From contig BSDZ01000096.1 of NCBI GenBank assembly GCA_030268105.1, positions 1 through 64,000 of the forward strand: a stretch of DNA of 64,000 nt, written 5' to 3'. The notes beneath the pieces are model-generated. The model was given only the letters and a program-made list of their open reading frames with translations, was not told where the DNA came from and searched no databases. Both the position numbers and the translations under genes were made by a program. This DNA comes from Volvox africanus (taxonomy: Eukaryota > Chlorophyta > Chlorophyceae > Chlamydomonadales > Volvocaceae). This document shows positions 1 through 64,000 of the stretch, piece by piece; position 1 is the first letter of the stretch, and every line of letters begins with the position of its first letter.

Positions 1-993
1 TTGGAGGTCCATGATTCGCGGCAGTTGCTGCCGCAGTTGCGAGTCACGAGCTGACGGCGGCGACACTCCAGGCGCGGCTTACTGAGTATGTGGAGCGGAT
101 TGACACGGACATGGTGCGACTACGGAAGAGATCCCAGCTTTTGTACAACGACACGCGGGGCTTGGATAAGAGCATGGATGCTTTGTTGAACTGTGCATGT
201 GTTTTGGATCATTGCAGGCAGAAGAGAATTGTATGGGGGCTTATTTTTTAACAGCTTCAATTTTGGAATCGTGTACATTGGGTTCAGTTGGATTTGGCCG
301 GGGTGGGATGGATTTGGGTGGTCAAAGGAGCACGAGTGGTATGAAGGGTCAATGCCAGTCCCCTATGCAGCAGAAGTCATGATCCAGGTATTCCGAGTGG
401 GACGCATCGGCAACCCCGACCACTACCCGCCGAACCCCTTATTAATAGGCCTCTGGGTCAACCCTTTGCTGGGAGTCCCATCCTCCAGGAGGGGATGTTT
501 GCCGCTCATCCAATGGAAATCAAATCACCTGTGGTCGGACCATCAGTGCCTTTTATTACACACGCCGAGGTTCTTCCCCCTTCTTCTTCCCTCTTCCTCT
601 GCAGGCGCTCGAGTACCAGGTACAGCAAGGCCTGGCTGCGGGCGTGGCCAAGGTACGGAAACCACAGGGAATAATCACGCGCTGCTGTTTACATGTTACG
701 AGCTCCCGAGCACCTTTTTGTAATGGCTATTTGGTTTGAAAATAGTGGACTCAATATTTATTACTCAGTAATTCCGCTACCCTTAATGTTGTTTATCCAG
801 GTGCCGTGGTTAATTGCCGTGCATCACGACGCACGGCAAAACCCCTTTTTCCTCCTGGTGTGCCTTTTCGTACCTCTGCCTGCTGTGCTGCAGGAGCCGC
901 TCTACCTAGTGCCCCTCAGCGCCCGCCACAGTCACAGCCTGGAGCTTCACGCGAACAATGTCGTCGTGAAGTTGTTGACCTGGATACACATGA
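1..993 (+). CDS. TOP6B: DNA topoisomerase VI subunit B, 3' end only
   Basis: This is the C-terminal end of a TOP6B gene whose upstream part lies outside the window. Visible are the tail of exon 9 (1-113, ending Y-V-E-R-I-D-T-D-M before a GT donor), exon 10 (605-652, ALEYQVQQGLAAGVAK) and the last exon (894-993, starting EPLYLVPLSA and ending in TGA at 991-993). Junction phases are all zero, and DTDM followed by ALEYQ matches the C-terminus of plant-type TOP6B. An extra C near 980 shifts the frame of the last exon here; the other copies are intact, so this is probably sequencing error. Exon 9 also carries indels near its start. Confidence 0.85.
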
Positions 994-2197
994 CATTGTT
1001 AACGGGCTGGGGAGGAAAAAGGCAGCAACAGAGCTTCAGGATAGTTGTGGGTTCACGGGACCCCCTACATGCTAATACTTCCCAGTATTGTCCCTGAGTG
1101 AAAAGCACAAGACCAGGAGCTCCCCAGGAGAAGGGCAGCGGCCCCAGGGAGGCTGTAACATTACACAAGAGGACGGCGCCAATGAAGATGCGTCAGAGAG
1201 TAAGAGGACTTATTGCTAGGATTGCGCGCGAAAGAGGCGTTTGGGTGATCGGGTATTCGATGCGTCGAATACACCATTTGAATGGTCCTCTGATTGTATT
1301 TTGACCCATCGCCGAGATGGTGTCGGACAGTACGCGCAAAGCTTGGTTGTCGATCAAGTATCAGGGTCATCTCTCCAGGATACAAGAACGCCCGCAAGGC
1401 TGGCTGCACAGGAGGTTTTATATAGGCGTGCACGAGGGTCCGGGGGATTGCTCTCCGGGACAGCGGCGAAACGAAACACTCGGAAATGACAGCGGCCGGG
1501 TGACCGCCTGTCGTTTTTTCCGAAAAATCACCCAAAGAAAGGAAGAGCAGCACCTCAGCCCTTACAGAATACCACCCAATGCCCGCCGTCTACATAACAA
1601 CCATGTACTATGCCGCAATGCCCGCAGCTGCCAGGGAGACTCCGCAGACCGATAATGTAAATATCAAGTAGCGACCCCATATACCAGTGAGATGGCGATG
1701 CGTCCTTTCCCCTTTGGCGCCGTCACAGACCAAAGCGCGAAAGCAACTTTGCAGTAAGCAACTTGACACCATAATCTCTCGTCTCACCTTATCCAGTGCA
1801 AGCTCTCCCTGCACATCAAAAACACACAGAGCCTTCCACATCGGAGTTCTTGCCTAAACCACCTACCCCTGCCTCCACCTCAAGTTACAGGCCTGTACCT
1901 GCTCGTCGTCAGCAGGATTGCAACATCAGACGCGCCCCTGGCGGTGACTGTGAAGCCCTTCAGGTTGCAAGTAAACATGAGAACTGGATGTCACGCCCCA
2001 ACTTGTTACACATCTCTTCGCGTCTTCTGCGCTTCTGAGGCGCCCTATCCAATGACCATACCCCGCTCACCCCAAACATTTGGATAGCATAAGTTCAGTA
2101 CACATCCTTACCGGCACAGCATGGACACACAGAGAGACATCAGCCTGGAAGAATACATACATGCCAATCACTTTTGCACCCTACAACCACCCGCAGC
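994..2197. other. Convergent spacer between TOP6B and protease 3' ends, copy 1
   Basis: About 1.2 kb between two stop codons that face each other. It should hold both 3' UTRs and terminators. No long open frame with recognisable homology is seen. A possible small minus-strand exon lies at its right side (see 30145-30250). A small hairpin with arms AATACT/AGTATT follows the TOP6B stop in copies 2-4, but one arm is disrupted here. Confidence 0.6.
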
Positions 2198-8793
<6,596 letters not shown>

Positions 8794-10135
8794 CTGTGCC
8801 GAGAGCGGGAAACGCAGCTTGAAACGGGGTGAGCGGGAAGCGCCGAGCAGCCGTGAAAACCTTGGCTGCGTACCGAGCTATCCGGGTCTTGCCCTAAGGA
8901 TCAAAAACCTCTCATCATGCATAAAGCTTGTACACAGCAGACATCCCACCTGGCCATACGTGCTAGCAGTACTCCCATCACTTACCAATATCTCATCATC
9001 AGCATCACCAGGAAATGCCCCAATGCCGTCGACACCGTAATTGTCAAGGAATATCACTGAAATTGCATCGTCATGAACACCACTGCCGCAATCAGAAAAG
9101 CTACTTCATCATAAGAACTTCCATTCCTAAGGGCAACCGGCGCCATCCACGGTCTTTGATGACTGGCCAAAGCATGCTCATTTCTCTCCCATGTCAAGTA
9201 CCCTGAACCCAGTGTCCGCCCCGCCACACGTGTGTGTATGTTTGTAGGCGGGGGAAGGGGAGAGAGGGTTCCAGGAAAGCCTGCGTGATGGCGGACGCTG
9301 AGCAATGTGTCTTAGTCTTGACAATTACATCAGGGAACCTAGGTGGAGAAACGGAGGAAGGAGGGATTTCGTAAATTATTACTATAATACTATGTTATAT
9401 ATAACATCAATAATAATGTAAAAGAGATATTTGCATATGTGTGGAGAACAGAAATTAGATGGGAATGGGGAAGGGAGGCGGGTGCTGCCTTGGGGGGAGG
9501 AGGGCGGGTGTTGTGGCAGAGGAGGGTATGCAGTGGGGTCAGGCAGGGAACATGAATGTGGGGTTAAGAGGGTGCGCCGAAGAGGCCTACTTGCGATGGG
9601 TGTGTTGCCATCGGGGCCGCCATTACTTACTCCTCAAACCTCTACCCGTTTCCCGCCACCAGACAATCACTAACTCTGGGTTCCGGACCTCTCTACTGTT
9701 CACACACACACAACACACGTATATTGTAGTGGGTGCAGCAAGCTGCGCTGGGCCCAGCTCTGACCTCCTTGCTTGCATGAGCTGCTGCTGTTAAGGAAAC
9801 TTTCCTGATTGGGTCAGGTCAGGTCAGGTCAGGTCAAGGATATATTATGGACCGGCAGACGGCGAAGCGAAAATGGGACTGCAGAGGATACGCGGATACA
9901 GATGCCTAATCGTCCCAACCCAACACCTAACACCTAACACTCAACACCTAACACCTAGCGAATGCCTTACAAGATACAAACGCCTAACTCCTTAACTCCC
10001 CGGATATCAGACCCCTGACTCCGCACCCATCCGCGGCCGCTTCTGCTTCCCGCAATGAAAATAGAACAGAAGAAGTTAAGAAAACAAAGAAAATAGTTCA
10101 ATAACGCAACTGAGTCCCCCGTAATCCGGTAACAG
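8794..10135. other. Head-to-head interval between protease and TOP6B fragments, copy 1
   Basis: A 1.34 kb stretch between the first visible exon of each gene. It contains the AT-rich palindrome, five GGTCA units, and degenerate AACACCT repeats (see the copy 2 entries). No frame encodes the GHKL ATP-site motifs expected upstream of TOP6B, nor a clear presequence plus TM1 for the protease. Confidence 0.7.
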
Positions 10136-13100
10136 AAATGAGCCCAACGTGCACCTGGAGGAGCAGCTGCCCAACCCCGACCAGTGGCACGGATCCGTGC
10201 TGAGTCTCACCATAGAGGGCAACTGGCAATATTACCGGTGAGATGCCGGGGACGGGGCATAGGCTGGAGGCCCGAGCAGGGGGCCTAGTGCTTTGGGTGG
10301 GGGAGGAGGTAGGCGCAAATGGGTTGCTATGGCTGCTGCAGGTCTGGAGTTGGGTGGGGCTGGCATTGGGGGGGAGGGGAGGGGACGACGAGGTTCCGGT
10401 TTTGCCGTACCTGACCTTCTGAGGAAAGGAAAAGAAAGGAATAGAAAAGGACTGCGTGTGTAACCTATGTGAAAGTGGGGGGAGGATAATGGTGCACTCA
10501 ATATGTATGGTGTATCAGATGTTACATTATCGTGGACGAGTTGTCTGGCCCCTACATCACCACATCCCGCTCTCATCCCCCCGGCCCACCACCACCCCGC
10601 GCACATCGGGGGCGCAGATCCAAGATCGTGCGTTACCTGCGGCAGATCGCCGTCATTACGCCGTACGCGCATTTTTGCTTCACATATAAGGCGGAGGAGG
10701 ACAAGAACAGCATGCGGATCAACTTCAGGCGGGCCGGGGCCATAGGAGGGGGAATGCACTTTTTCCATTGAACTAGACGTACACCAGGGTTGGGGGCTAG
10801 GCCCTGGGGCACCAGGCAAAATTGGGGGCGGGGGGTTGCGTGTGGGAGGACATATAACCGTATTTGGGGCGGACACACCGTCCTAGGCTCCTAGCACCAA
10901 ATTAGTAATACCAACGCTCGTAGCGTAGTACGAGCTTATGCATCTTATGAAAGCGGTTTTTAGCAAAGAAAAATCACCTTATAACCCTAAAGATGTTGTA
11001 ATTCCTGACGATCTTCCGAACAAAACGTTAAACTGCCCCCTGTCCCCCTGCCGAGCGGTAACATGTCTCGTTTATCCATCATCCGCCCTGCCCCATGCGC
11101 CCCATCCTCCAGGCGCCGTACGGATGTGATGCCGCCGCCCCCACGTGCTACCAAGCACCACCCATCGTCCGTGGATTTGGAGCTCGTTAAGCGCCTCATC
11201 GCCGCCACGGGAACCAAGACCACTCACTGCCTTCCTGCGCAAAGAGTTCGACTGCGTCAGCCCTGCGCTTGCCGGTGAGGCCTTCAAGAGCTGCCTGGGC
11301 GCTGCCTGGCCGGGCTGTGAACCCGCCACGTGGATGGCTCTGGGGCTCACAAGCACACACTCATTCACACACACGAGCACACACAGGATCCCATTGTACT
11401 TTTATTGTGCTCTTCAACAGCATTAACGAATTGTCAACTCGGCCTTTACTATTATTTTGTTGCTGCTGTGTTTGCGCGCGTGTGTGCAGAGCGGCTGGTG
11501 GGGGAGATGCAGGCTGGGGTGGAGGGGGACATGAGCCCACGACAGCTAACAGACAAACAGGTGTGTATGTGTGTATATGTGTGTGCACGCGTGTGATCTT
11601 TTATTGGACGTTGCCATGTGTTTGTGTGTGTGTTGGGTTTATAGGGATGGGATGGCTCCGAAGTGACGTTTTCTGGTGAGGGCACGACGGTGGCCTGATG
11701 GTGTGTGGAGGTGCTTACGAGTTGGAGGATGCGAGTATATGAAGATTTAAACAAGAATTCACAGACGCAGAGATTCCTGAGGAGCTATGCATCATCACAG
11801 CGCACATGCGGATGGGGGGAGGGAGCTCTGGTAACCAATGTAATAGAGGGGCCTTCCGACCGGCTGACCGGGGTTAACTGGGGTTAGCCCGGGTTTAACT
11901 GTGCACCCGCTTGCACACCACGCCAGCTTCCCCACATCCCCCGCCCTTCTTGGCCCCATACCCGTCCAGAGCGCATCCCCGTTCTGTGCAGGTCGTCCGG
12001 CTGCACCAGCTGCTCCACGAGGTCCGCTTCGATGACCCCAAGGGCGACCACCTAAGTCCCGCGGGTGAGCCAGGAAGTCGGGTTCTGGGGACCTTATTCG
12101 GGTAACCGAACCAGGTGCCGAAGTCGATACGCAGCGGGATCTGATGACACCGCGACCGCATTCGGCGGCTACGGTATTTCGATTGTTGGACATGCAGCCA
12201 CTGGGAGTAACCCAACCGAGTCTATCAGAGCTCTCAAGCGGCAGGGACCAGGGCCAGTGGGAGAAGGGCCAGGGGCAGAGGGGCAAGGGGCAGAGGGGCA
12301 AGGGGCAGAGGGGCAAGGAGCTGAGAGAAGGGGCGATACCCCTTGATTCTCGCTGGCACGAGGCGGATCCCTCTCAGCAATTAACGCTACCCTAGCCACC
12401 CATGGACAGTTTCCTTCCCTAACACTCACGCACCTTTTCTGGCGCCCATTCTCTCCGCTCCCAGGGGAATACAACCTCCGCCTGGGTGTTATGAAGGAGC
12501 TGGCCCCTGACATGATTGCCACCCACCAGGGGGATGTGCGGGTGTTCGAGGGACACGCCTTCATCGTGGAGGCGGCGGTCAGCGTAGGCGGCAGGGACAT
12601 CAAGCCGGGTGAGTGATGGGTTTTAACTAGGGTTGGGGAATCCGTATCAGTGTGGGAAGTCGTGATATGCCCGATCAAGTGTTTCCACATTACAAAGTCT
12701 GAGAAAGGGGGACGCTCGGGGCCGAAGAGAGGTATGTGTGACCTTTAGTTGGTTGCCACTTCCTCCTCCTCCTGCTCCTCCTCCTCCTCCTCCTGCTCCT
12801 CCTCCTCCTGCTCCTGCTCCTCCTCCTCCTCCTCCCGCTCCTCCTCCTCCTCTTCCTCATTATCAGCATCATCTTGGATAACGCTCCATGACTATCACCT
12901 GCCGCAAACACTACCCCTTTCGGGCAGGGTCTACAGGGGCAGCTAAAGGCAGGCTCCAAAACTCCTCCTCCTCATTCTTCAACGCCACTTGTCAACTTCA
13001 AAACACGCTGCCCTTTAATCGTTTGCGTTTCTCATGGCAATCGCAATCGCAATCGCATTCACATTCACATTCACATTCACATTCACACAAACACGTATAT

Positions 13101-15139
13101 GAATACCTTCTGGACACCTGGTGCAGGCATCAACGTGCACCGCTTCGCCAACCGCATCCCGCTGCTATTTGAAGGCGGCTCCGACGTTATCACAAAGACC
13201 GCCCTCAAGCGCATTAACTGGGCGTCCTACAAAATCAACCAGGCCACCGACAAGGTAACCGGGGAAAGTCCCCCACGTGGGGTGGCTTATCTATTTCATC
13301 GTGTAGTAACTATCACACCCCGCGTCACCTGCTGTCGTTGCCAGGTGATATCTTTCTTGTCTTGCTCGGGTCCTCTTCTCGTTTGATCTCTTTGCCCTCC
13401 ATGCCGGCCTGCGGCACCGGCCCCGGGACCTATATCGCGTCCCCTGTTGCCGCTGCCAGGTGGGTGTGTTCGTGAGCATTGTGAGCACAAAGATACCTTC
13501 AAGGGCGCGGGCAAAGAGTACATCGGTGATGATGTGGAGGAAATGGTGGCGGCGGTGAAGTCCGCGATCCAGGGTTGGTGGGTACAGAATGTGCCTGCTT
13601 CGGAAACGACGGGAGGTGTTGAATGCGACGAGCCCGTGAGAAGATGTGAGGCGTGGAAGGAAAACGGAACCGCAAACTCAACTTCACGTGTTGCGAACGG
13701 GCGCACTTAAGTGCGTTATGTGTATGTGCCAAGAAACGTCTGTGTGTGTGTCTGTGTGTCTGTGTGTGCATACGTCCAGAAATGTGCTCTTCAATTATAC
13801 CCAACCCAAAGCCCCACTTTAATCCCTCTCCAATCATTTCGCGTCGACACAGTGAACGACGTGCGACCAACTGTTAACATTCCCCCCGTTTCCCCTCATT
13901 GCTCAGGCGTGTTGTCTGCAGCTCAAGGTGAAAATCGTCCGCGCGATTGCGGCCAGGGAGCAGAAGCAGCGCAAGCGAAACCTCACGAAATACATCCCCG
14001 ATGTTGCCAAGGCGTCTACTCGGTTTTGGAACGGATGGCGGAGCGTGCTATTGAAGCAGGCGGTGGAGGACGTGGAAGCAGTGGAAGCGCCCTGGGGGAC
14101 AAAGAGGAGGTGAAGCCCGAACAGGAGGCCACGGCGAAAGCGGCGGCGGTTGGAGGTCCATGATTCGCGGCAGTTGCTGCCGGCAGTTGCGAGTCACGAG
14201 CTGACGGCGGCGACACTCCAGGCGCGGCTTACTGAGTATGTGGAGCGGATTGACACGGACATGGTGCGACTTACGGAAGAGATCCCAGCTTTGTACAACG
14301 ACACGCGGGGCTTGGATAAGAGCATGGATGCTTTGTTGAACTGTGCATGTGTTTTTGGATCATTGCAGGCAGAAGAGAATTGTATGGGGCTTATTTTTTA
14401 ACAGCTTCAATTTTGGAATCGTGTACATTGGGTTCAGTTGGATTTGGCCGGGGTGGGATGGATTTGGGTGGTCAAAGGAGCACGAGTGGTATGAAGGGTC
14501 AATGCAGTCCCCTATGCAGCAGAAGTCATGATCCAGGTATTCCGAGTGGGACGCATCGGCAACCCCGACCACTACCCGCCGAACCCCTTATTATAGGCCT
14601 CTGGGTTCAACCCTTGCTGGGAGTCCCATCCTCCAGGAGGGGGATGTTTGCCGCCTCATCCCAATGGAAATCAATCAACCTGTGGTCGGACCATCAGTGC
14701 CTTTTATTACACACGCCGAGGTTCTTCCCCCTTCTTCTTCCCTCTTCCTCTGCAGGCGCTCGAGTACCAGGTACAGCAAGGCCTGGCTGCGGGCGTGGCC
14801 AAGGTACGGAAACCACAGGGAATAATCACGCGCTGCTGTTTACATGTTACGAGCTCCCGAGCACCTTTTTTGTAATGGCTATTTGGTTTGAAATAGTGGA
14901 CTCAATATTTATTACTCAGTAATTCCGCTACCTTAATGTTGTTTATCCAGGTGCCGTGGTAATTGCCGTGCATCACGACGCACGGCAAAACCCCTTTTCC
15001 TCCTGGTGTGCCTTTCGTACCTCTGCCTGCTGTGCTGCAGGAGCCGCTCTACCTAGTGCCCCTCAGCGCCCGCCACAGTCACAGCCTGGAGCTTCACGCG
15101 AACAATGTCGTCGTGAAGTTGTTGACTGGATACACATGA
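10136..15139 (+). CDS. TOP6B: DNA topoisomerase VI subunit B, 5'-truncated (instance 1)
   Basis: Eleven-exon gene fragment spanning the copy 1/copy 2 boundary; exon structure is as described for the 38364-43370 instance. The first visible exon begins after an AG acceptor at 10135, and the TGA stop is 15137-15139. Exon 3 (11113-11274) is one base too long because of an extra C near 11220, which breaks the frame in this copy only. Exons for the N-terminal GHKL ATP-binding motifs are not found upstream. The product would be the B subunit of the type IIB topoisomerase, which works with TOP6A/SPO11-like subunits in the nucleus; no A subunit is present in the window. Confidence 0.85.
13702..13715. 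repeat. Perfect 14 bp palindrome in TOP6B intron 8
   Basis: CGCACTTAAGTGCG is fully self-complementary and lies between exons 8 and 9. It is followed by a GT-rich run (13738-13770). It recurs in copies 2-4. Confidence 0.85.
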
Positions 15140-16348
15140 CATTGTTAAACGGGCTGGGGAGGGAAAAAGGCAGCAACAGAGCTTCAGGATAGTGTGTGGG
15201 TTCACGGGACCCACCTACATGCTAAATACTTCCCAGTATTGTCACTGAGTGAAAAGCACAAGACCAGGAGCTCCCCAGGAGAAGGGCAGCGGCCCCAGGG
15301 AGGCTGTAACATTACACAAGAGGACGGCGCCAATGAAGATGCGTCAGAGAGTAAGAGGACTTATTGCTAGGATTGCGCGCGAAAGAGGCGTTTGGGTGAT
15401 CAGGGTATTCGATGCGTCCGTAATACACCATTTGAATGGTCCTCTGATTGTATTTTGACCCATCGCCGAGATGGTGTCGACAGTACGCGCAAAGCTTGGT
15501 TGTCGATCAAGTATCAGGGTCATCTCTCCAGGATACAAGGAACGCCCGCAAGGCTGGCTGCACAGGAGGTTTTATATAGGCGTGCACGAGGGTCCGGGGA
15601 TTGCTCTCCGGGACAGCGGCGAAACACTCGGAAATGACAGCGGCCGGGTGACCGCCTGTCGTTTTTCCGAAAAATCACCCAAAGGAAAGGAAGAGCAGCA
15701 CCTCAGCCCTTACAGAATACACCCCAATGCCCAGCCGTCTACATAACAACCATGTACTATGCCGCAATGCCCGCAGCTGCCAGGGAGACTCCGCAGACCG
15801 ATAATGTACATATCAAGTAGCGACCCCATATACCAGTGAGATGGCGATGCGTCCTTTCCCTTTGGCGCCGTCACAGACCAAAGCGCGAAAGCAACTTTGC
15901 AGTAAGCAACTTGACACCATAAATCTCTCTGTCTCACCTTATCCAGGCAAGCTCTCCCTGCACATCAAAAAAACACACAGAGCCTTCCACATCGGAGTTC
16001 ATTGCCTAAACCACCTACCCCTGCCTCACCTCAAGTTACAGGCCTGTACCTGCTCGTCGTCAAGCAGGATTGCAACATCAGACGCGCCCCTGGCGGTGAC
16101 TGTGAAGCCCTTCAGGTTGCAAGTAAACATGAGAACTGGATGGCACGCCCACCTTGTTACACATCTCTTCGCGTCTTCTGCGCTTCTGAGGCGCCCTATC
16201 AATGACCATACCCCGCTCACCCCAAACATTTGGATAGCATAATGTTCAGGTACACATCCTTACCGGCACAGCATGGACACACAGAGAGACATCAGCCTGG
16301 AAGAATAATACATGCCAATCACTTTTGCACCCTACAACCACCCGCAGC
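15140..16348. other. Convergent spacer, copy 2
   Basis: Same 1.2 kb spacer as 994-2197. The TATATA string near 15573-15578 lies in a stretch with open plus-strand frames of about 80 codons, but these match no family I know and shift between copies. Confidence 0.6.
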
Positions 16349-22904
<6,556 letters not shown>

Positions 22905-23503
22905 CTGTGCCGAGAGCGGGAAACGCAGCTTGAAACGGGTGAGCGGGAAGCGCCGAGCAGCCGTGAAAACCTTGGCTGCGTACCGAGCTATCCGGGTCTT
23001 GCCCTAAGGATCAAAAACCTCTCATCATGCATAAAGCTTGTACACAGCAGACATCCCACCTGGCCATACGTGCTAGCAGTACTCCCATCACTTACCAATA
23101 TCTCATCATCAGCATCACCAGGAATGCCCCAATGCCGTCGACACCGGTAATTGTCAAGGAATATCACTGAAATTGCATCGTCATGAACACCACTGCCGCA
23201 ATCAGAAAAGCTACTTCATCATAAGAACTTCCATTCCTAAGGGCACCGGCGCCATCCACGGTCTTTGATGACTGGCCAAAGCATGCTCATTTCTCTCCCA
23301 TGTCAAGTACCCTGAACCCAGTGTCCGCCCCGCCACCACGTGTGTGTATGTTTGTAGGCGGGGGGAAGGGGAGAGAGGGTTCCAGGAAAGCCTGCGTGAT
23401 GGCGGACGCTGAGCAATGTGTCTTAGTCTTGACAATTACATCAGGGAACCTAGGTGGAAGAAACGGAGGAAGGAGGGATTTCGTAAATTATTACTATAAT
23501 ACT

Positions 23504-23519
23504 ATGTTATATATAACAT
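23504..23519. repeat. Perfect 16 bp AT palindrome
   Basis: ATGTTATATATAACAT is its own reverse complement and lies inside an AT-rich patch (about 23485-23550) of the head-to-head interval. It is present in copies 1-4 at the equivalent position. Confidence 0.85.
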
Positions 23520-23923
23520 CAATAATAATGTAAAAGAGATATTTGCATATGTGTGGAGAAACAGAAATTAGATGGGAATGGGGAAGGGAGGCGGGTGCTG
23601 CCTTGGGGGGAGGAGGCGGGTGTTGTGGCAGAGGAGGGTATGCAGTGGGGTCAGGCAGGGAAACATGAATGTGGGGTTAAGAGGTGCGCCGAAGAGGCCT
23701 ACTTGCGATGGGTGTGTTGCCATCGGGGCCGCCATTACTTACTCCTCAAACCTCTACCCGTTTCCCGCCACCAGACAATCACTAACTCTGGGTTCCGGAC
23801 CTCTCTACTGTTCACACACACACAACACACGTATATTGTAGTGGGTGCAGCAAGCTGCGCTGGGCCCAGCTCTGACCTCCTTGCTTGCATGAGCTGCTGC
23901 TGTTAAGGAAACTTTCCTGATTG

Positions 23924-23948
23924 GGTCAGGTCAGGTCAGGTCAGGTCA
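23924..23948 (+). repeat. Five tandem GGTCA pentamers
   Basis: Five exact direct GGTCA units in the head-to-head interval, the same number in copies 1-4. The pentamer number is stable despite many indels elsewhere. Confidence 0.9.
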
Positions 23949-24031
23949 AGGATATATTATGGACCGGCAGACGGCGAAGCGAAAATGGGACTGCAGAGGA
24001 TACGCGGATACAGATGCCTAATCGTCCCAAC

Positions 24032-24070
24032 CCAACACCTAACACCTAACACTCAACACCTAACACCTAG
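24032..24070 (+). repeat. Degenerate AACACCT heptamer tract
   Basis: About five imperfect units of AACACCT, followed by looser CCTAAC-like words to about 24112. Read on the other strand the unit is TGTTAGG-like, loosely resembling telomere-type repeats. It lies in the head-to-head interval of copies 1-4. Confidence 0.8.
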
Positions 24071-43370: not shown

Positions 43371-44583
43371 CATTGTTAAACGGGCTGGGGAGGGAAAAAG
43401 GCAGCAACAGAGCTTCAGGATAGTGTGTGGTTCACGGGACCCACCTACATGCTAAATACTTCCCAGTATTGTCACTGAGTGAAAAGCACAAGACCAGGAG
43501 CTCCCCAGGAGAAGGGCAGCGGCCCCAGGGAGGCTGTAACATTACACAAGAGGGACGGCGCCAATGAAGATGCGTCAGAGAGTAAGAGGACTTATTGCTA
43601 GGATTGCGCGCGAAAGAGGCGTTTGGGTGATCAGGGTATTCGATGCGTCGTAATACACCATTTGAATGGTCCTCTGATTGTATTTTGACCCATCGCCGAG
43701 ATGGTGTCGACAGTACGCGCAAAGCTTGGTTGTCGATCAAGTATCAGGGTCATCTCTCCAGGATACAAGGAACGCCCGCAAGGCTGGCTGCACAGGAGGT
43801 TTTATATAGGCGTGCACGAGGGTCCGGGGGATTGCTCTCCGGGACAGCGGCGAAACACTCGGAAATGACAGCGGCCGGGTGACCGCCTGTCGTTTTTCCG
43901 AAAAATCACCCAAAGGAAAGGAAGAGCAGCACCTCAGCCCTTACAGAATACACCCAATGCCCCAGCCGTCTACATAACAACCATGTACTATGCCGCAATG
44001 CCCGCAGCTGCCAGGGAGACTCCGCAGACCGATAATGTACATATCAAGTAGCGACCCCATATACCAGTGAGATGGCGATGCGTCCTTTCCCCTTTGGGCG
44101 CCGTCACAGACCAAAGCGCGAAAGCAACTTTGCAGTAAGCAACTTGACACCATAAATCTCTCTGTCTCACCTTATCCAGGCAAGCTCTCCCTGCACATCA
44201 AAAAACACACAGAGCCTTCCACATCGGAGTTCATTGCCTAAACCACCTACCCCTGCCTCACCTCAAGTTACAGGCCTGTACCTGCTCGTCGTCAAGCAGG
44301 ATTGCAACATCAGACGCGCCCCTGGCGGTGACTGTGAAGCCCTTCAGGTTGCAAGTAAACATGAGAACTGGATGGCACGCCCACCTTGTTACACATCTCT
44401 TCGCGTCTTCTGCGCTTCTGAGGCGCCCTATCCAATGACCATACCCCGCTCACCCCAAACATTTGGATAGCATAATGTTCAGGTACACATCCTTACCGGC
44501 ACAGCAATGGACACACAGAGAGACATCAGCCTGGAAGAATACATACATGCCAATCACTTTTGCACCCTACAACCACCCGCAGC
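43371..44583. other. Convergent spacer, copy 4
   Basis: Same spacer as in copy 3, differing by a few single-base indels. No RNA gene or recognised protein is seen. Confidence 0.6.
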
Positions 44584-51142
<6,559 letters not shown>

Positions 51143-52485
51143 CTGTGCCGAGAGCGGGAAACGCAGCTTGAAACGGGTGAGCGGGAAGCGCCGAGCAGCC
51201 GTGAAAACCTTGGCTGCGTACCGAGCTATCCGGGTCTTGCCCTAAGGATCAAAAACCTCTCATCATGCATAAAGCTTGTACACAGCAGACATCCCACCTG
51301 GCCATACGTGCTAGCAGTACTCCCATCACTTACCAATATCTCATCATCAGCATCACCAGGAATGCCCCAATGCCGTCGACACCGGTAATTGTCAAGGAAT
51401 ATCACTGAAATTGCATCGTCATGAACACCACTGCCGCAATCAGAAAAGCTACTTCATCATAAGAACTTCCATTCCTAAGGGCCACCGGCGCCATCCACGG
51501 TCTTTGATGACTGGCCAAAGCATGCTCATTTCTCTCCCATGTCAAGTACCCTGAACCCAGTGTCCGCCCCGCCACCACGTGTGTGTATGTTTGTAGGCGG
51601 GGGGAAGGGGAGAGAGGGTTCCAGGAAAGCCTGCGTGATGGCGGACGCTGAGCAATGTGTCTTAGTCTTGACAATTACATCAGGGAACCTAGGTGGAGAA
51701 ACGGAGGAAGGAGGGATTTCGTAAATTATTACTATAATACTATGTTATATATAACATCAATAATAATGTAAAAGAGATATTTGCATATGTGTGGAGAAAC
51801 AGAAATTAGATGGGAATGGGGAAGGGAGGCGGGTGCTGCCTTGGGGGGAGGAGGCGGGTGTTGTGGCAGAGGAGGGTATGCAGTGGGGTCAGGCAGGGAA
51901 ACATGAATGTGGGGTTAAGAGGTGCGCCGAAGAGGCCTACTTGCGATGGGTGTGTTGCCATCGGGGCCGCCATTACTTACTCCTCAAACCTCTACCCGTT
52001 TCCCGCCACCAGACAATCACTAACTCTGGGTTCCGGACCTCTCTACTGTTCACACACACACAACACACGTATATTGTAGTGGGTGCAGCAAGCTGCGCTG
52101 GGCCCAGCTCTGACCTCCTTGCTTGCATGAGCTGCTGCTGTTAAGGAAACTTTCCTGATTGGGTCAGGTCAGGTCAGGTCAGGTCAAGGATATATTATGG
52201 ACCGGCAGACGGCGAAGCGAAAATGGGACTGCAGAGGATACGCGGATACAGATGCCTAATCGTCCCAACCCAACACCTAACACCTAACACTCAACACCTA
52301 ACACCTAGCGAATGCCTTACAAGATACAAACGCCTAACTCCTTAACTCCCCGGATATCAGACCCCTGACTCCGCACCCATTCGCGGCCGCTTCTGCTTCC
52401 CGCAATGAAAATAGAACAGAAGAAGTTAAGAAAACAAAGAAAATAGTTCAATAAACGCAACTGAGTCCCCGTAATCCGGTAACAG
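51143..52485. other. Head-to-head interval, copy 4
   Basis: Same interval as in the other copies, with only a few single-base differences. No promoter can be assigned with confidence. Confidence 0.7.
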
Positions 52486-55400
52486 AAATGAGCCCAACGT
52501 GCACCTGGAGGAGCAGCTGCCCAACCCCGACCAGTGGCACGGATCCGTGCTGAGTCTCACCATAGAGGGCAACTGGCAATATTACCGGTGAGATGCCGGG
52601 GACGGGGCATAGGCTGGAGGCCCGAGCAGGGGGCCTAGTGCTTTGGGTGGGGAGGAGGTAGGCGCAAATGGGTTGCTATGGCTGCTGCAGGTCTGGAGTT
52701 TGGGTGGGGCTGGCATTGGGGGGGAGGGGGAGGGGGACGACGAGGTTCCGGTTTTTGCCGTACCTGACCTTCTGAGGAAAGGAAAAGAAAGGAATAGAAA
52801 AGGACTGCGTGTGTAACCTATGTGAAAGTGGGGGGAGGATAATGGTGCACTCAATATGTATGGTGTATCAGATGTTACATTATCGTGGACGAGTTGTCTG
52901 GCCCCTACATCACCACATCCCGCTCTCATCCCCCCGGCCCACCACCACCCCCGCGCACATCGGGGGCGCAGATCCAAGATCGTGCGTTACCTGCGGCAGA
53001 TCGCCGTCATTACGCCGTACGCGCATTTTTTTTGCTTCACATATAAGGCGGAGGAGGACAAGAACAGCATGCGGATCAACTTCAGGCGGGCCGGGGCCAT
53101 AGGAGGGGGAATGCACTTTTTCCATTGAACTAGACGTACACCAGGGTTGGGGGCTAGGCCCTGGGGCACCAGGCAAATTGGGGGCGGGGGGTTGCGTGTG
53201 GGAGGACATATAACCGTATTTGGGGCGGACACACCGTCCTAGGCTCCTAGCACCAAATTAGTAATACCAACGCTCGTAGCGTAGTACGAGCTTATGCATC
53301 TTATGAAAGCGGTTTTAGCAAAGAAAATCACCTTATAACCCTAAAGATGTTGTAATTCCTGACGATCTTCCGAACAAAACGTTAAACTGCCCCCTGTCCC
53401 CCTGCCGAGCGGTAACATGTCTCGTTTATCCATCATCCGCCCTGCCCCATGCGCCCCATCCTCCAGGCGCCGTACGGATGTGATGCCGCCGCCCCCACGT
53501 GCTACCAAGCACCACCCATCGTCCGTGGATTTGGAGCTCGTTAAGCGCCTCATCGCCGCCACGGGAACCAAGACACTCACTGCCTTCCTGCGCAAAGAGT
53601 TCGACTGCGTCAGCCCTGCGCTTGCCGGTGAGCCTTCAAGAGCTGCCTGGGCGCTGCCTGGCCGGGCTGTGAACCCGCCACGTGGATGGCTCTGGGGCTC
53701 ACAAGCACACACTCATTCACACACACGAGCACACACAGGATCCCATTGTACTTTTATTGTGCTCTTCAACAGCATTAACGAATTGTCAACTCGGCCTTTA
53801 CTATTATTTTGTTGCTGCTGTGTTTGCGCGCGTGTGTGCAGAGCGGCTGGTGGGGGAGATGCAGGCTGGGGTGGAGGGGGACATGAGCCCACGACAGCTA
53901 ACAGACAAACAGGTGTGTATGTGTGTATATGTGTGTGCACGCGTGTGATCTTTTATTGGACGTTGCCATGTGTTTGTGTGTGTGTTGGGTTTATAGGGAT
54001 GGATGGCTCCGAAGTGACGTTTCTGGTGAGGGCACGACGGTGGCCTGATGGTGTGTGGAGGTGCTTACGAGTTGGAGGATGCGAGTATATGAAGATTTAA
54101 ACAAGAATTCACAGACGCAGAGATTCCTGAGGAGCTATGCCTCATCACAGCGCACATGCGGATGGGGGAGGGAGCTCTGGTAACCAATGTAATAGAGGGG
54201 CCTTCCGACCGGCTGACCGGGGTTAACTGGGGTTAGCCCGGGTTTAACTGTGCACCCGCTGCACACCACGCCAGCTTCCCCACATCCCCCGCCCTTCTTG
54301 GCCCCATACCCGTCCAGAGCGCATCCCCGTTCTGTGCAGGTCGTCCGGCTGCACCAAGCTGCTCCACGAGGTCCGCTTCGATGACCCCAAGGGCGACCAC
54401 CTAAGTCCCGCGGGTGAGCCAGGAAGTCGGGTTCTGGGGACCTTATTCGGGTAACCGAACCAGGTGCCGAAGTCGATAACGCAGCGGGATCTGATGACAC
54501 CGCGACCGCATTCGGCGGGCTACGGTATTCGATTGTTGGACATGCAGCCCACTGGGAGTAACCCAACCGAGTCTATCAGAGCTCTCAAGCGGCAGGGACC
54601 AGGGCCAGTGGAGAAGGGCCAGGGGCAGAGGGGCAAGGGGCAGAGGGGCAAGGGGCAGAGGGGCAAGGAGCTGAGAGAAGGGGCGATACCCCTTGATTCT
54701 CGCTGGCACGAGGCGGATCCCTCTCAGCAATTAACGCTCCCTAGCCACCCATGGACAGTTTCCTTCCCTAACACCTCACGCACCTTTTCTGGCGCCCATT
54801 CTCTCCGCTCCCAGGGAATACAACCTCCCGCCTGGGTGTTATGAAGGAGCTGGCCCCTGACATGATTGCCACCCACCAGGGGATGTGCGGGTGTTCGAGG
54901 GACCACGCCTTCATCGTGGAGGCGGCGGTCAGCGTAGGCGGCAGGGACATCAAGCGGGTGAGTGATGGGTTTTAACTAGGGTTGGGGAATCCGTATCAGT
55001 GTGGGAAGTCGTGATATGCCCGATCAAGTGTTTCCACATACAAAGTCTGAGAAAGGGGACGCTCGGGGCCGAAGATAGAGAGTATGTGTGACCTTTAGTT
55101 GGTTGCACTTCCTCCTCCTCCTGCTTCCTCCTCCCTCCTCCTCCTGCTCCTCCTCCTCCTGCTCCTGCTCCTCCTCCTCCTCCTCCCGCTCCTCTCCTCC
55201 TCTTCCTCATTATCAGCATCATCTTGGATAACGCTCCATGACTATCACCTGCCCGCAACACTACCCCTTTCGGGCAGGGTCTACAGGGGCAGCTAAGGCA
55301 GGCTCCAAAACTCCTCCTCCTCATTCTTCAACGCCACTTGTCAACTTCAAAACACGCTGCCCTTTAATCGTTTGCGTTTCTCATGGCAATCGCAATCGCA

Positions 55401-57485
55401 ATCGCATTCACATTCCATTCACATTCACATTCACACAAACACGTATATGAATACCTTCTGGACACCTGGTGCAGGCATCAACGTGCACCGCTTCGCCAAC
55501 CGCATCCCGCTGCTATTTGAAGGCGGCTCCGACGTTATCACAAAGACCGCCCTCAAGCGCATTAACTGGGCGTCCTACAAAATCAACCAGGCCACGACAA
55601 GGTAACCGGGGAAAGTCCCCCACGTGGGGTGGCTTATCTATTCATCGTGTAGTAACTATCACACCCCGCGTCACCTGCTGTCGTTGCCAGGTGATATCTT
55701 TTCTTGTCTTGCTCGGTCCTCTTCTCGTTTGATCTCTTTGCCCTCCATGCCGGCCTGCGGCACCGGCCCCGGGACCTATATCGCGTCCCCTGTTGCCGCT
55801 GCCAGGTGGGTGTGTTCGTGGAGCATTGTGAGCACAAAGATACCTTCAAGGGCGCGGGCAAAGAGTACATCGGTGATGATGTGGAGGAAATGGTGGCGGC
55901 GGTGAAGTCCGCGATCCAGGTTGGTGGGTACAGAATGTGCCTGCTTCGGAAACGACGGGAGGTGTTGAATGCGACGAGCCCGTGAGAAGATGTTGAGGCG
56001 TGGAAGGAAAACGGAACCGCAAACTCAACTTTCACGTGTTGCGACGGGCGCACTTAAGTGCGTTATGTGTATGTGCCAAGAAACGTTCTGTGTGTGTGTC
56101 TGTGTGTCTGTGTGTGCATACGTCCAGAAATGTGCTCTTCAATTATACCCAACCAAAAGCCCCACTTTAATCCTCTCCAATCATTTCGCGTCGACACAGT
56201 GAACGACGTGCGACCAACTGTTAACATTCCCCCCGTTTCCCCTCCATTGCTCAGGCGTGTTGTCTGCAGCTCAAGGTGAAAATCGTCCGCGCGATTGCGG
56301 CCAAGGAGCAGAAGCAGCGCAAGCGAAACCTCACGAAATACATCCCCGATGTTGCCAAGGCGGTCTACTCGGTTTTGGAACGGATGGCGGAGCGTGCTAT
56401 TGAAGCAGGCGGTGGAGGACGTGGAAGCAGTTGGAAGCGCCCTGGGGACAAAGAGGAGGTGAAGCCCGAACAGGAGGCCACGGCGAAGCGGCGGCGGTTG
56501 GAGGTCCATGATTCGCGGCAGTTGCTGCCGGCAGTTGCGAGTCACGAGCTGACGGCGGCGACACTCCAGGCGCGGCTTACTGAGTATGTGGAGCGGATTG
56601 ACACGGACATGGTGCGACTTACGGAAGAGATCCCAGCTTTGTACAACGACACGCGGGGCTTGGATAAGAGCATGGATGCTTTGTTGAACTGTGCATGTGT
56701 TTTGGATCATGCAGGCAGAAGAGAATTGTATGGGGGCTTATTTTTTTAACAGCTTCAATTTTGGAATCGTGTACATTGGGTTCAGTTGGATTTGGCCGGG
56801 GTGGGATGGATTTGGGTGGTCAAAGGAGCACGAGTGGTATGAAGGGTCAAGCAGTCCCCTATGCAGCAGAAGTCATGATCCAGGTATTCCGAGTGGGACG
56901 CATCGGCAACCCCGACCACTACCCGCCGAACCCCTTATTATAGGCCTCTGGGTTCAACCCTTGCTGGGAGTCCCATCCTCCAGGAGGGGGATGTTTGCCG
57001 CCTCATCCCAATGGAAATCAATCAACCTGTGGTCGGACCATCAGTGCCTTTTATTACACACGCCGAGGTTCTTCCCCCTTTCTTCTTCCCTCTTCCTCTG
57101 CAGGCGCTCGAGTACCAGGTACAGCAAGGCTGGCTGCGGGCTGGCCAAGGTACGGAAACCACAGGGAATAATCACGCGCTGCTGTTTACATGTACGAGCT
57201 CCCGAGCACCTTTTTTGTAATGGCTATTTGGTTTGAAAAATAGTGGACCTCAATATTTATTACTCAGTAATTCCTGCACCTTAATGTTGTTTATCCAGGT
57301 GCCGCTGGTAATTGCGTGCATCACGACGCACGGCAAACCCCTTTTCCTCCTGGTGTGCCTTTCGTACCTCTGCCTGCTGTGCTGCAGGAGCCGCTCTACC
57401 TAGTGCCCCTCAGCGCCCGCCACAGTCACAGCCTGGAGCTTCACGCGAACATGTCGTCGTGAAGTTGTTGACTGGATACACATGA
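52486..57485 (+). CDS. TOP6B: DNA topoisomerase VI subunit B, 5'-truncated (instance 4)
   Basis: Same fragment, spanning the copy 4/copy 5 boundary, with its stop at 57483-57485. It carries the most indels. Exon 2 has a lengthened T run near 53028-53034, exon 5 an extra A near 54356, and exon 6 has several missing or extra bases between 54814 and 54957. Exons 10 and 11 have further losses. Because these errors are scattered and private to this copy, I read them as low consensus quality near the contig end rather than decay of a pseudogene, though decay cannot be excluded from one sequence. Confidence 0.8.
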
Positions 57486-58701
57486 CATTGTTAAACGGGC
57501 TGGGGAGGAAAAAGGCTAGCACACAGAGCTTCAGGATAGTGTGTGGGTTCACGGGAACCACCTACATGCTAAATACTTCCCAGTATGGTCACTGAGTGAA
57601 AAGCACAAGACCAGGAGCTCCCCAGGAGAAGGGCAGCGGCCCCAGGGAGGCTGTAACATTACACAAAGAGGACGGCGCCATGAAGATGCGTCAGAGAGTA
57701 AGAGGACTTATTGCTAGGATTGCGCGCGAAGGAAGAGGCGTTTGGGTGATCAGTGGTATTCGATGCGTCGTAATACACCCTTTGAATGGTCCTCTGATTG
57801 TATTTTGACCCATCGCCCGAGAGGTGTCGACAGTACGCGCAAAGCTTGGTTGTCGATCAAGTATCAGGGTCATCTCTCCAGGATACAAGGAACGCCGCAA
57901 GGCTGGCTGCACAGGAGGTTTTATATAGGCGTGCACGAGGGTCCGGGGGATTGCTCTCCGGGACAGCGGCGAAACACTCGGAAATGACAGCGGCGGGTGA
58001 CCGCCTGTCGTTTTTCCGAAAAATCACCCAAAGGAAAGGAAGAGCAGCACCTCAGCCCTACAGAATACACCCCAATGCCCAGCCGTCTACATAACAACAT
58101 GTACTATGCCGCAATGCCCGCAGCTGCCAGGGAGACTCCGCAGGACCGATAATGTACATATCAAGTAGCGACCCCACTATACCAGTGAGATGGCGATGCG
58201 TCCTTTCCCTTTGGCGCCGTCACAGACCAAAGCGCGAAAGCAACTTTGCAGTAAGCAACTTGACACCATAAATCTCTCTGTCTCACCTTATCCAGGCAAG
58301 CTCTCCCTTGCACATCAAAAACACACAGAGCCTTCCACATCGGAGTTCATTGCCTAAACCACCTACCCCCTGCCTCACCTCAAGTTACAGGCCTGTACCT
58401 GCTCGTCGTCAAGCAGGATTGCAACATCAGACGCGCCCCTGGCGGTGACTGTGAAGCCCTTTCAGGTTGCAAGTAAACATGAGAACTGGATGGCACGCCC
58501 CACCTTGTTACACATCTCTTCGCGTCTTCTGCGCTTCTGAGGCGCCCTATCCAATGACCATACCCCCGTCACCCCAAACATTTGGATAGCATAATGTTCA
58601 GGTACACATCCTTACCGGCACAGCATGGACACACAGAGAGACATCAGCCTGGAAGAATACATACATGCCAATCACTTTTGCACCCTACAACCACCCGCAG
58701 C
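57486..58701. other. Convergent spacer, copy 5
   Basis: Same spacer, with more indels than copies 2-4. Nothing additional is seen in it. Confidence 0.6.
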
Positions 58702-61700
58702 TCACGTCGCGACCACCAAACCGGGCCGGCGCCCCTTCTTGCCCTCCACCCGTTTCTCATCACCACTCGTATCATCTGAATTTTCCTTCGCACCGCCGCT
58801 GCCATCGCCACCAGCGCCGCCCTCCTCCTCCCCAGGCCCAGTCTCCGTCTCCATCGTTTTCTCCCCGGTCACCAGCTCTTGGGCCTTACTGGCTCCGGAG
58901 CCGTGCCTGAAACGGTCGATATTCCGGAGCTCTTGTCACATGAAAGGCCGCTTGCCTAGCAACCTTTCAACATCATCCAAATTCAGCACCTGCAGTGTAA
59001 GAGATGAGAAAGTAAAAAAGATCCACGGCTGAAATTTAAAAGCCCGAAACCCTAAACTCAGGAGGGTAAATAGCAACCGCAATTCCGTTGCGATCCGTTG
59101 CCTAAAGCAACTAAGCTGTACACCGTCCTGTGCACCCGGAGGGGAGGGAAACAGACATTCAGACAGACAGGGCGAATCACCGTCCCCATCTCCACATCAT
59201 GCACGTGCATAGGTGCTTAGGGTAGGGTGCCCAGGTGCATACCTCCTTTCGCAGCAGCTCTGCTGTCATGGCCTCAATCTGTTCCCGGTGCTTCTCCACC
59301 AGTGCCACGGTGCGCTTTGTAGGCCATGTCCACAAAGCTGCGGACCTGTGGTGCGGAGTGCATGAGGGTAGGGGCCGGACACGGGCAACGACAACAAGGA
59401 GAGGAAGATGGGTTCTATGACAGACGAGGAACCCATGGGAGAACGGGCTCTAATATTTCCCGAAAGTGTTGGGTATGCGGATCGGTGTCGTCAGCAGTCT
59501 TCACCCAGGAGGATAACTCCAACACATCAAACCGTATACCAACCAGTCCGATGGTACCTTGCTGAGTAATCAGCTGAATTTGCGGAGGAGAGCGAAGTGT
59601 GTCAATTTGACACTAAGAGGAGTCTCTCTCTCACTAATATATTTCTTTCTTTTATTATTACTAAAGAGTATTATATTAATATATATTAAAATATCAATTA
59701 ACCATTAATTCGAGAGGAATAAAAGAGCGCTAAATAGTCATCAAACTCACCTCCTCATCGATAAGTCGGGCCGTCTCATCCGAATAGGGCTTGTCAAAGG
59801 CGTCACGCTCCATGCGGAAGGACACCAGTCCCACCTTCTCATTCATGCCGTACACCGCCACCTGAAGCAGGAATAAGAGGGTGAGGGGCCAACGGAGGCG
59901 GTATGAAGCGCTACGAGGATGTTGGCTAGTGAGCGCCCCGTCCAGCCACTCCCGTAATTCAAAGCGCTAGCATGTGAGCTCCCGGGCAGGCCATAAGAGA
60001 ACCGACAGGCAGAGAAAGGAGTCTGGAATACTGCCGCCACAAGTGCCACATTACGTGATTCTTTATCGCTCAATCCCTAACACAGAGGGCCTTGACATGA
60101 AACATTCCAGCATTCCTCACACCTCCCTTTTCTTTAGCATACTGGAACTCTGCTCCCTCTTCTCCCCTAAGCCCGACCACGAGTCGGAAGACCGCCCTCC
60201 ATTGCCCTTACCTGCGAATACGCCATCTGAGTGATTCTTTCCAGGTCGTTGACTGCTCCCGTACTGATCTTGCCCAGCATCACCTGCTCAGCCGCCCGAC
60301 CGCCCAGAGTTGCGCATACGCGGTCCAGCAGTTGCTCCTTGAGATGCGAGTAAACCATAGAGGGAAGAGTGGGCGAGTTTTGGGGAAACAAAGGTGAGGG
60401 GATAACGGAGAACAAATGGAAACAGAATGGTGTGACGGACATGTCATTTGATTGCCTGTAAGGGGCAGACGAGGAAGGCAGAGATCGCCGATTGCAATGA
60501 CCACGAACCGCAGGCTTACGGTGCTTTCAATATGATAACATTAATATTATATCAATTCATTATACTGAAAGCACGAACCCACAAGCTGCCACCAGATACC
60601 GCCCCTTACCTTCGTTAGCAGCAGGTTCTCGTTGGGGAGATACTGCGCAAAGCCAAGGGTGGCGGTGCCACGAGGTACAATGGACACTTTCAGCAAAAGG
60701 CTCTGCATACTCAAGGAACCAGGAGACCACCGCATGGCCGGACTCGTGGTAAGCCACTGTACGGCGCTCCTCAGTCGAAATGACCTGCGGGTAAGGCATC
60801 AAATATACAGACAGAATGGATAACTAAACTGATTGATCGATGATTGGAGAGGGTGAGGAAATTTTTCATAGAGGAGAGTTTAGTGATCGTGTGTGTTAGG
60901 GAGGGGAGTCACGGCCTTATGTGAGAAGGACTTGCAAAGAGATTAAGGAAGGCGAGCTAACGAAACGCGTCCATGTGGCGCACAAAAGCTGACACCTGCC
61001 TCCCGTCCACGGCTCGTCGCACATCATTCCCACAAGGCGAGTATGCACCCTGTATCATATCGTACCGAAAAACGATACGATAGGAGGATCCCTGACCAAG
61101 AATTGATTACACACCCCAAAACCCTCAACCCACCTTGTTCCTTTTTCTCTAGCCCGCCAATGACCCGGTCAATAGCCGCCTCGAAGTCCGGCAAATCTAC
61201 CGAGTCCCTGCGAACAGCGTGGCATCAGCGTGGGGGGTACAAACAGCGAAAAGAGCCCAGGTCAGCTCCAGGGGGAAGCGGCGGACGAAACATTACATCG
61301 TCCGATGCCACGCCCGCGACAGAATCAAGACCAGACAACTTCTAAGACCTAATAATGCAGCCCCACCATCAGCTGGAGTCTATGACAGCACCACCTCTAC
61401 CCCACACTGCAGACCTTGTCTTTCCTCGCCGCGTGGAAGCGCCCGCCTCATTGCACACGTTGGCGATATCAGCGCCGCTCATGCCTGGCGTCAGCGCTGC
61501 AAGCCGCTCCGCGTAGAAATCGGCCTCACGGGCGAGCTTGAGCTTCCCGAGGTGCACCCGGAATATCTGCTCACGCCCCTTGATGTCCGGAGTATCCACC
61601 GTGATCATGCGGTCAAACCTTGGGGCGAGCAAAGTCATTGCACTATTCGACGGAGGTAATGGAGTTACAGGCTCAACTGAAAAATGGCGACTGCAAAAAA

Positions 61701-64000
61701 GCCGCCAGCCAGCCCCACAAAACTCCCTTCGGGACTCTATCCCTCCCCATCTCCCACGTGCCTTGACCCTAGCCCCAACCCCGCTAAGAAGCCTTAGCAC
61801 AAACCTGTTCCACGCAGTGTTCCCTGCCCACTGCCAGGGCACTAACTTACCTTCCCCGGCCTCAGCAGGGCCTTATCCAGGATTTCGGGCCTGTTCGTAC
61901 CACCCAGGACGACCACTCCGCTTGTGGTGGCGAATCCGTCCATCTGAGGTACAAGGGGTTGGATGCCGCAAGTTTGAGCAACTGTTGCACATACACGTCA
62001 CCTTGGCGTTGTCGTCCTACTCGGACCACTTCATTATGCCAGTCCGTGCATCACGTACAACTCGCCTAAGAGGAAGAAGGAAAAGAAGTCCTCGTCTCCC
62101 CTCCCCTTTCTGCGCCTCCCTCCCTTTTTACTGCCTACCCATCTCTCCCCCATCTTTTTCTCTTCCCCCCCCCTCCCCAGATCCTCACCTCGACCAGCAG
62201 CTGATTGAGCGTGTTCTCTCGCTCATCGTGGCCCCCCATGGCGCCACCGCGACCCGCGAGCCCGGCCGATGGCGTCGATCTCATCAATGAAGATGATGGA
62301 GGGGTTCTGGTTTGCGCGCCTGCGCTAGGTGGATAATGGGAACCCAATGAGAAGTTAATCGATAATGAACTGTAAGCAGCGTATTATATTGTACCACGAT
62401 ACATGTCAACGAAGGAACCACGCATACATATACGCCTCCCTCTCCCCGACAAACAAACAAGCCCTACACTCTTTCCTCCCCGATGAGCAACAGATCTGTC
62501 CAGTCTCGCTGCACCCACCTGCGCGAACAGGTCCCGTACTCGGGCGGGCCCCACCCCGACGAACATCTCCATGAAGTCGCTGCCAGAAATGGAAAGGAAG
62601 GGCACTCCCGCTTCGCCGGCCGTGGCCTTAGCCAGCAGTGTTTTGCCCGTGCCAGGGGGGCCAACCTGCATGGACGCGGATGTGTGTGTGGGTTAGGGAC
62701 GGGACACGAACACATATCCAACCTCTTGGAAAGGTATATATCCATGCCTCAACTTCAACGCTCGGTGAGAGAATAGCTGCCCTCACCTTGGCGGACCTAA
62801 CTCGAAATAACCGCCTCTCAGACAGACTCGACATAACCGTCTTAAAACGTATCCTAAAAGCCACATCCGAACCTGTCCATATCTTGCAACTGACACATAC
62901 TGTGCGCAAGAATTGCCACATACGCATTACACAATACACCCCCTCCATCCATACCTGCGCCTGCGCCTGTTGGCACATATACTCGTCACCATCTGGTTGT
63001 CCTCTTCTTCCCCGTCCCTGTCCTAGCATGCCCTTTACTGGATCCCCGTGCGCACAACTCACGAGCAGCGCGCCCTTCGGAATTTTCGCTCCCAGGTCGA
63101 TGTACTTCTTCGGATCTTCAAAAAGTCTACGAACTCCATAATCTCGGTTTTGGCTTCATCGCAGCCCGCCACGTCCCTGAACACAATACGCTCCTTTGAC
63201 TTGTCCATAAAGGATACGTTGGCCTTCGACTGAAGATTGTGGGCATGAGGGTGGGGTTAACAAGGGGGGTTGGGGAAGTCGGATAAAACGAATCCTGGTT
63301 GCTGATACTGAAGAAGGGAAGACTAACCGTGAGTGGTCGAATGATGGCCGACGTCGTCCAAAGTAAGGAAAGTGGAATGGGGGTGGGTTGGGGAGATGGG
63401 AGCTTCTACAAAGCTCTTTACCAGAGGGACTAAACTAACACAATCACCACCACCACCACAGTCTTTAGAGAGATGTTGCGGTCATAGTTTAATTGTGTTT
63501 AGAGGAGCAGGACCGTGCTTATAAGCCGCTGCAGTTATAGCTACCTGTCTCAATGAAACTGCAAATATCTCCTCGTAAGGCCAGATGCGCAAAGGCCAGA
63601 TGCTCCGCCCGAATATGGCCCCCTCCCACCCACCAGCGTCCCTCCTCAAGGGCCACCGACCACGCGTTCTCCAATAATCATAATACGGTTTTGACACATT
63701 CCAGCTTCGACTGGACTCTTAATAATCCTGCCTTTGTTTTGCCTCCGTGCGTTGGCCCCCCCTTCCGGCCCCACTGGCGCCCCAGGATCCGCACCAGCCT
63801 CCGGGATCAGCATCGTACTATACATACTAGAGATACGAAAACTTCCACCGGATGCATCATTCCCTTACATGGAGGTGCCGCCTGCCTCCCTCGCTCCCTG
63901 CCGCCCCACCCTCCCCGCATGCGCATCCTCGGCCTCACCATGCCGAAGAAGCCTCCCGCGCCGCCCATGCCGCCCCTGCCATTGCGTCCCCCCAGTCCGC
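58702..64000 (-). CDS. AFG3-like mitochondrial m-AAA protease, cut by window end (instance 5)
   Basis: Same gene in copy 5. The stop is at 58702-58704 and the gene runs off the window inside the exon that starts (on the low side) at 63939 and encodes the Gly/Met-rich linker. AAA+ and peptidase exons are all present. Private indels are frequent, for example in the region 61430-61445 and 61800-62100, consistent with falling consensus quality toward the end. Confidence 0.82.
60519..60575. repeat. AT-rich inverted-repeat element, copy 5
   Basis: Same element as 18166-18220, with an extra G in the left arm and an extra base in the interior. Confidence 0.78.

Follow-up and report, generated by a model that had tools for sequence, protein, structure and literature searches.

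Contig BSDZ01000096.1 of the Volvox africanus assembly (hereafter C93) is best read as the less polished right-hand end of an array at a nuclear chromosomal locus, where a segment of 14,103 bp has been amplified head to tail, probably to five or more copies, by a founding tandem duplication and later unequal exchange (probability about 0.87). The amplification is genuine, chromosomal and probably recent, and its copy number, which rests on contigs rather than reads, is no lower than three and probably reaches five or more. The assembly mishandled the locus and contains it in three mutually inconsistent versions, on contigs C10, C92 and C93; counts of TOP6B, AFG3 and duplicated genes in this species would be inflated as a result.

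Layout of the array and its chromosomal flanks

The window analysed here comprises the first 64,000 bases of C93, which is 68,623 bases long. We found the 14.1 kb head-to-tail array described in the original prediction, with five copies in direct orientation starting exactly at 1, 14150, 28267, 42382 and 56498; copies 2 to 4 have the claimed lengths of 14117, 14115 and 14116 bases, copy 1 measures 14149 bases and copy 5 contributes 7503 bases to the window. Self-alignment at four lags spans the window at 97.2-98.8% identity. Multiple alignment bears out the near-absence of substitutions that had been proposed, the differences being mostly 1-bp indels: copies 2 to 4 differ pairwise by 8-25 substitutions, and of the 91-133 gap events per pair almost every one spans a single base; copy 1 is noisier (51-66 substitutions and 161-197 gap events against the other full copies), giving 91-197 gap events overall between pairs of full copies. 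The window yielded zero tRNA genes and zero Rfam families at the gathering threshold. Natural units, junctions and example domains are given in Table 1.

Table 1. Natural units, unit junctions and example domain exons in the window (~, approximate position)
Feature	Position	Strand	Content or remark
3' part of a natural unit; contig starts inside the unit	1-9229	+	TOP6B 3' end (to ~990) and truncated AFG3 (2201-8796, - strand); boundary from C10 breakpoints
Unit-unit junction	9229-9230	.	AFG3 intron / TOP6B intron, 1 bp microhomology
Natural copy 1	9230-23339	+	Truncated TOP6B (+, ~10131-15136), truncated AFG3 (-, ~16352-22907)
Topo-VIb_trans (PF09239) exon	13126-13257	+	Example from a truncated TOP6B copy
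Unit-unit junction	23339-23340	.	
Natural copy 2	23340-37458	+	Variant 9990T; truncated TOP6B (+, ~24243-29253), truncated AFG3 (-, ~30469-37027)
Unit-unit junction	37458-37459	.	
Natural copy 3	37459-51578	+	Variants 9990T, 13910A, 7446C; truncated TOP6B (+, ~38359-43367), truncated AFG3 (-, ~44587-51145)
Peptidase_M41 (PF01434) exon	46496-46663	-	Example from a truncated AFG3 copy
Unit-unit junction	51578-51579	.	
Last natural unit	51579-64000	+	Variants 9990T, 13910A, 5919T; truncated TOP6B (+, ~52481-57482), AFG3 (-, from ~58705); extends as far as contig base 65717, where unique flank starts

The array had been described as having no unique flank, which is correct for the window but not for the contig, because the window ends before the array does: C93 runs on for 4623 further bases and exits the array at 65,717 into 2.9 kb of flank that is also found in C10 below position 566501. 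The last 3,206 bases of C93, of which 300 are array, match C10 from 566799 down to 563594 at 98.2% identity (4 mismatches, 53 gap openings). The whole assembly comprises 126 contigs and 140,993,249 bases; in it, at least 12 matches (12 candidates scored) were obtained with an array probe of 1,234 bases, distributed among C93 (5), C92 (4) and C10 (3). C10, a contig of 5,130,913 bases, carries the array at 566501-608789 in the orientation opposite to that of C93, with unique sequence on both sides; its 42,289 bp correspond to three times 14,103 less 20, since one junction base is included twice, once per end, and 21 bp are missing from the left-most copy. C92 (59,875 bases) consists of array sequence only and ends, at base 59875, at the right breakpoint seen in C10 and C93 after about 4.25 copies, compared with three copies in C10 and about 4.65 in C93. 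A left-flank probe had one match in the genome, in C10, which is the only contig to represent the left end of the array, and a right-flank probe matched at full length in C10 and C93, besides partial matches of 45-456 bases, four in all, in C109, C15 and C4. The locus thus shows direct, near-identical copies at one site with unique sequence on either side, as expected of a chromosomal tandem segmental amplification.

These links to the chromosome make it most improbable that C92 and C93 were assembled from an extrachromosomal circle or rolling-circle product lying beside a chromosomal copy. The original prediction had offered a circular molecule assembled as a concatemer as one option, and both the array-only content of C92 and the direct head-to-tail order would be compatible with it, but an extrachromosomal array should be unlinked to chromosomal flank, whereas C93 passes from array into flank at the very breakpoint seen in C10, C10 itself holds three tandem copies joined to flank, and C92 carries the right-end variant 5919T in its last copy and stops exactly at the flank breakpoint.

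Genes cut by the breakpoints

Using splice models built by homology, we identified the genes of the locus as TOP6B, which encodes subunit B of topoisomerase VI, and AFG3, which encodes a mitochondrial protease of the AFG3 (m-AAA) type; the two genes are convergent and their 3' ends lie about 1.2 kb apart (C10 587586 and 588804). Of the 695-residue TOP6B protein of V. africanus, residues 1-230 map once, at C10 611667-608790, outside the array, and residues 229-695 have three placements inside the C10 array. Likewise, residues 1-214 of an AFG3-type protein of V. reticuliferus (905 aa) map once, in the right flank at C10 565192-566398 (residues 112-140 unmatched), and residues 210-905 have three placements inside the C10 array (residues 359-370 unmatched). 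Judged from these placements, both breakpoints fall inside genes and each gene is cut once by one event, with the 5' exons of TOP6B present only in the left flank and those of AFG3 only in the right flank. Because the breakpoints lie inside both genes, the internal copies lack the 5' exons of TOP6B and AFG3; the internal units carry 5'-truncated pieces of the two genes, which face each other head to head across each junction. The AFG3 of the last C93 unit is joined to its own 5' exons, located beyond the window.

The original prediction of two housekeeping-type genes per unit was therefore right as to family, but each unit carries only 5'-truncated pieces, and amplification of complete housekeeping genes is ruled out, since the unit is without the 5' exons of either gene. 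The truncated copies are very likely inactive. Whether units are few or many, TOP6B survives complete once, at the left end, and AFG3 once, at the right end.

Domain and structure matches agree with these assignments. The intact TOP6B at the array's end combines a GHKL ATPase domain in its flank part (HATPase_c_3, PF13589, 35 bits) with a transducer domain in its array part (Topo-VIb_trans, PF09239, 176.5 bits), and its best solved relative is TopoVI-B (2zbk_B, E 4.3e-74). The array part of AFG3 carries AAA, lid and peptidase M41 domains, each over its Pfam cut-off, and the nearest solved chain to the intact end AFG3 is AFG3-like protein 2 (6nyy_A, E 3.7e-153). Taken alone, the flank part of AFG3 scores 22.7 bits for FtsH_ext against a Pfam cut-off of 25.5, and the V. 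reticuliferus protein aligns there at 93% over residues 141-214. The TOP6B transducer had at least 28 matches in the genome (31 candidates scored), all of them in C10, C92 and C93; peptidase M41 has additional loci.

A rough TOP6B model is closest to V. africanus (86%), followed by V. reticuliferus (84%) and V. carteri (78%). When the left-most TOP6B was aligned with the V. africanus protein, 16 of the 17 aligned stretches were 83-100% identical, and the remaining one, which overruns exon ends, was 58% identical. The closest AFG3 protein among the matches listed is that of V. reticuliferus (87%). A scan of the assembly for the RuBisCO large-subunit family found nothing. An organellar or bacterial source was rejected, the genes being rich in introns and closest to Volvox. 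The V. reticuliferus TOP6B and AFG3 proteins are numbered consecutively (Vretimale_5397 and Vretimale_5398), which suggests that the pairing of the two genes is ancestral.

Copy-specific variants and the disagreement among contigs

We then compared the copies at variant positions, numbered in unit coordinates against the C10 unit (5919, 7446, 9990, 12240 and 13910). The variant 5919T occurs in the last copy only, in all three contigs; 9990T and 13910A mark the right-hand copies of all three contigs, except that the base at 13910 is missing in the last natural copy of C92; 7446C is found in C10 copy 2 and C93 copy 3; and 12240C, together with a 21-bp deletion, marks the left-most copy, represented in C10 only. 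The deletion lies in a repeat tract of changeable length at unit position about 12713-12810 (C10 577077-576980), which is 21 bp shorter in that copy. In window copies 2 and 3, all three substitutions relative to the C10 unit are position-specific variants. Two of the variants alter protein sequence when read in the frames of relatives' proteins, with 13910 changing R to K in TOP6B and 7446 changing M to R in AFG3; both derived states sit in truncated copies, but these are two cases only.

The four whole natural copies of C93 and the left-most copy of C10 make up five types (left-most; plain; 9990T; 9990T with 13910A and 7446C; and 9990T with 13910A and 5919T), implying at least five copies and about 70 kb provided that C93 is laid out correctly. 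Two extra combinations, 7446C alone (C10 copy 2) and 9990T with 13910A alone (C92 copy 3), mean that the three contigs cannot all render one array correctly. None of the C93 copies has the combination of C10 copy 2 (9990C, 13910G, 7446C), and C92 and C93 disagree at 7446 and 9990. Ten 1-bp indels are likewise common to the final copies of C92 and C93, so that the contigs probably share reads and the recurrence of variants among them is not independent evidence.

Apart from the variants, the C93 array differs from the C10 unit by 273 insertions, 174 deletions and 21 substitutions; their density rises towards either end of the contig, reaching 22.5 per kb, and is 0-8.5 per kb across window copies 2 and 3, a pattern resembling little-polished long-read consensus where read depth thins out. 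The likely source strain, 1101-NZ-11 (TH), is described in the genome paper as having an assembly of 129 contigs and 141.0 Mbp, sequenced on PacBio Sequel to about 197x with a mean subread of about 18.7 kb (27.7 Gb / 1.48 M; reads under DRA015422), and assembled with Canu 2.2 and Pilon (PMC10291315). With units this similar, Canu could have misplaced reads and Pilon could have overwritten variants. The disagreement among contigs could stem from collapse of C10 together with over-polishing of C92, or from arrays that truly differ in length within the culture. The abstract of the same paper (PMC10291315) treats these algae as haploid, so a second allele is not expected.

Real length variants in the sequenced culture, with three copies in C10 and five or more in C93 arising through ongoing unequal exchange rather than through collapse of C10, seem rather unlikely to us, although they would be a version of the preferred explanation and do not exclude it. 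C10 copy 2 resembles C93 copy 1 in its front part and C93 copy 3 in its back part, as after one crossover or a two-unit deletion, and the flanks of C10 and C93 agree within errors; however, assembly collapse predicts the same pattern, and a polished C10 beside a noisy C93 resembles the main and leftover paths of one data set.

That the true locus holds a single unit (or two), through which Canu looped to produce three to five copies, appears very unlikely. The assembly did mishandle the locus, with three contigs giving three different copy numbers, C93 is poorly polished, C92 and C93 have errors as well as variants in common, and the mean subread length calculated from PMC10291315 is too short to cover several units of 14.1 kb. 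A pure one-copy loop, the assembler artefact named in the original prediction, nevertheless leaves the copy-specific variants unexplained: five substitutions and the 21-bp deletion distinguish positions along the array, and each of the three contigs has 5919T in its last copy. The internal junction itself requires at least two copies, and the reported libraries should contain reads that exceed one unit. A recent tandem amplification, the remaining one of the options that had been put forward, is the one favoured by the C10 flanks, the same exit in C93 and the position-specific variants.

Origin and consequences of the amplification

The left ancestral join reads ...ACATACACAGG / CGTGTGTG..., the right ancestral join ...CCGCCACCAC / CGCCACAA... 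and the internal join ...CCGCCACCAC / GTGTGTG..., with one ambiguous base (C) across the three, which amounts to 1 bp of microhomology. Within 1 kb of both points, a search for flanking repeats found only matches of 10-21 bp (best E 0.39), which argues against founding by recombination between flanking direct repeats. By the sequence of the joins, the founding step was a tandem duplication of the 14,103 bp segment that joined a point in an AFG3 intron to an exon/intron edge of TOP6B; it probably arose through end-joining or a replication error. Later unequal exchange between copies may have expanded and homogenised the array, consistent with the near-identity of the units and the graded pattern of variants, and copy number could then drift with the number of intact genes unchanged.

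The rearrangement is of an ordinary, known kind with a neat dosage-neutral geometry. In the CUP1 arrays of yeast, complete functional genes are amplified and dosage is raised; the present array resembles them in its near-identical head-to-tail units at a single chromosomal site, prone to unequal exchange, but differs in that its units hold only 5'-truncated genes. A likeness in geometry comes from tumour tandem-duplicator studies, in which single transections are regarded as effectively copy-number neutral (PMC12174438): here too a breakpoint falls inside each gene, an intact copy is kept and gene number is effectively neutral. The Volvox locus departs from that description in that two convergent genes are each cut once by the same event, in an alga, and in that the copies of the segment number three at the minimum and probably five or more.

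More speculatively, the locus might act as a self-protecting, dosage-neutral amplifier, in which unequal exchange always leaves one intact TOP6B and one intact AFG3, allowing free expansion and contraction and possibly variation from cell to cell, and in which the truncated starts lying head to head at the junctions might yield antisense or chimeric transcripts against the intact genes; we regard this as doubtful. If the array does vary between cells, unequal exchange in a clonal, haploid alga could be measured with it as a clean natural marker, since changes in copy number should leave the dosage of intact genes unaltered. We found no publication on this array among the papers listed for Volvox africanus and tandem repeats, Volvox genome assemblies or topoisomerase VI duplication in Volvox, and the word 'tandem' has 0 occurrences in PMC10291315.

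Further features of the assembly were observed. Past the right flank, C10 carries at about 540400-562000 a group of repeats 0.2-1.4 kb long, both dispersed and inverted, which are probably transposon remains, and a frame judged by eye to resemble a Ty3/gypsy reverse transcriptase lies at C10 560001-560558 on the - strand, about 6 kb from the array's right end. A search of the assembly for RWP-RK domains gave 12 matches, with C22 not among the contigs hit. On C14, two of the RWP-RK matches (289582-289719 and 302950-303087) with equal score, strand and frame length lie 13.4 kb apart and are perhaps another recent tandem duplication.
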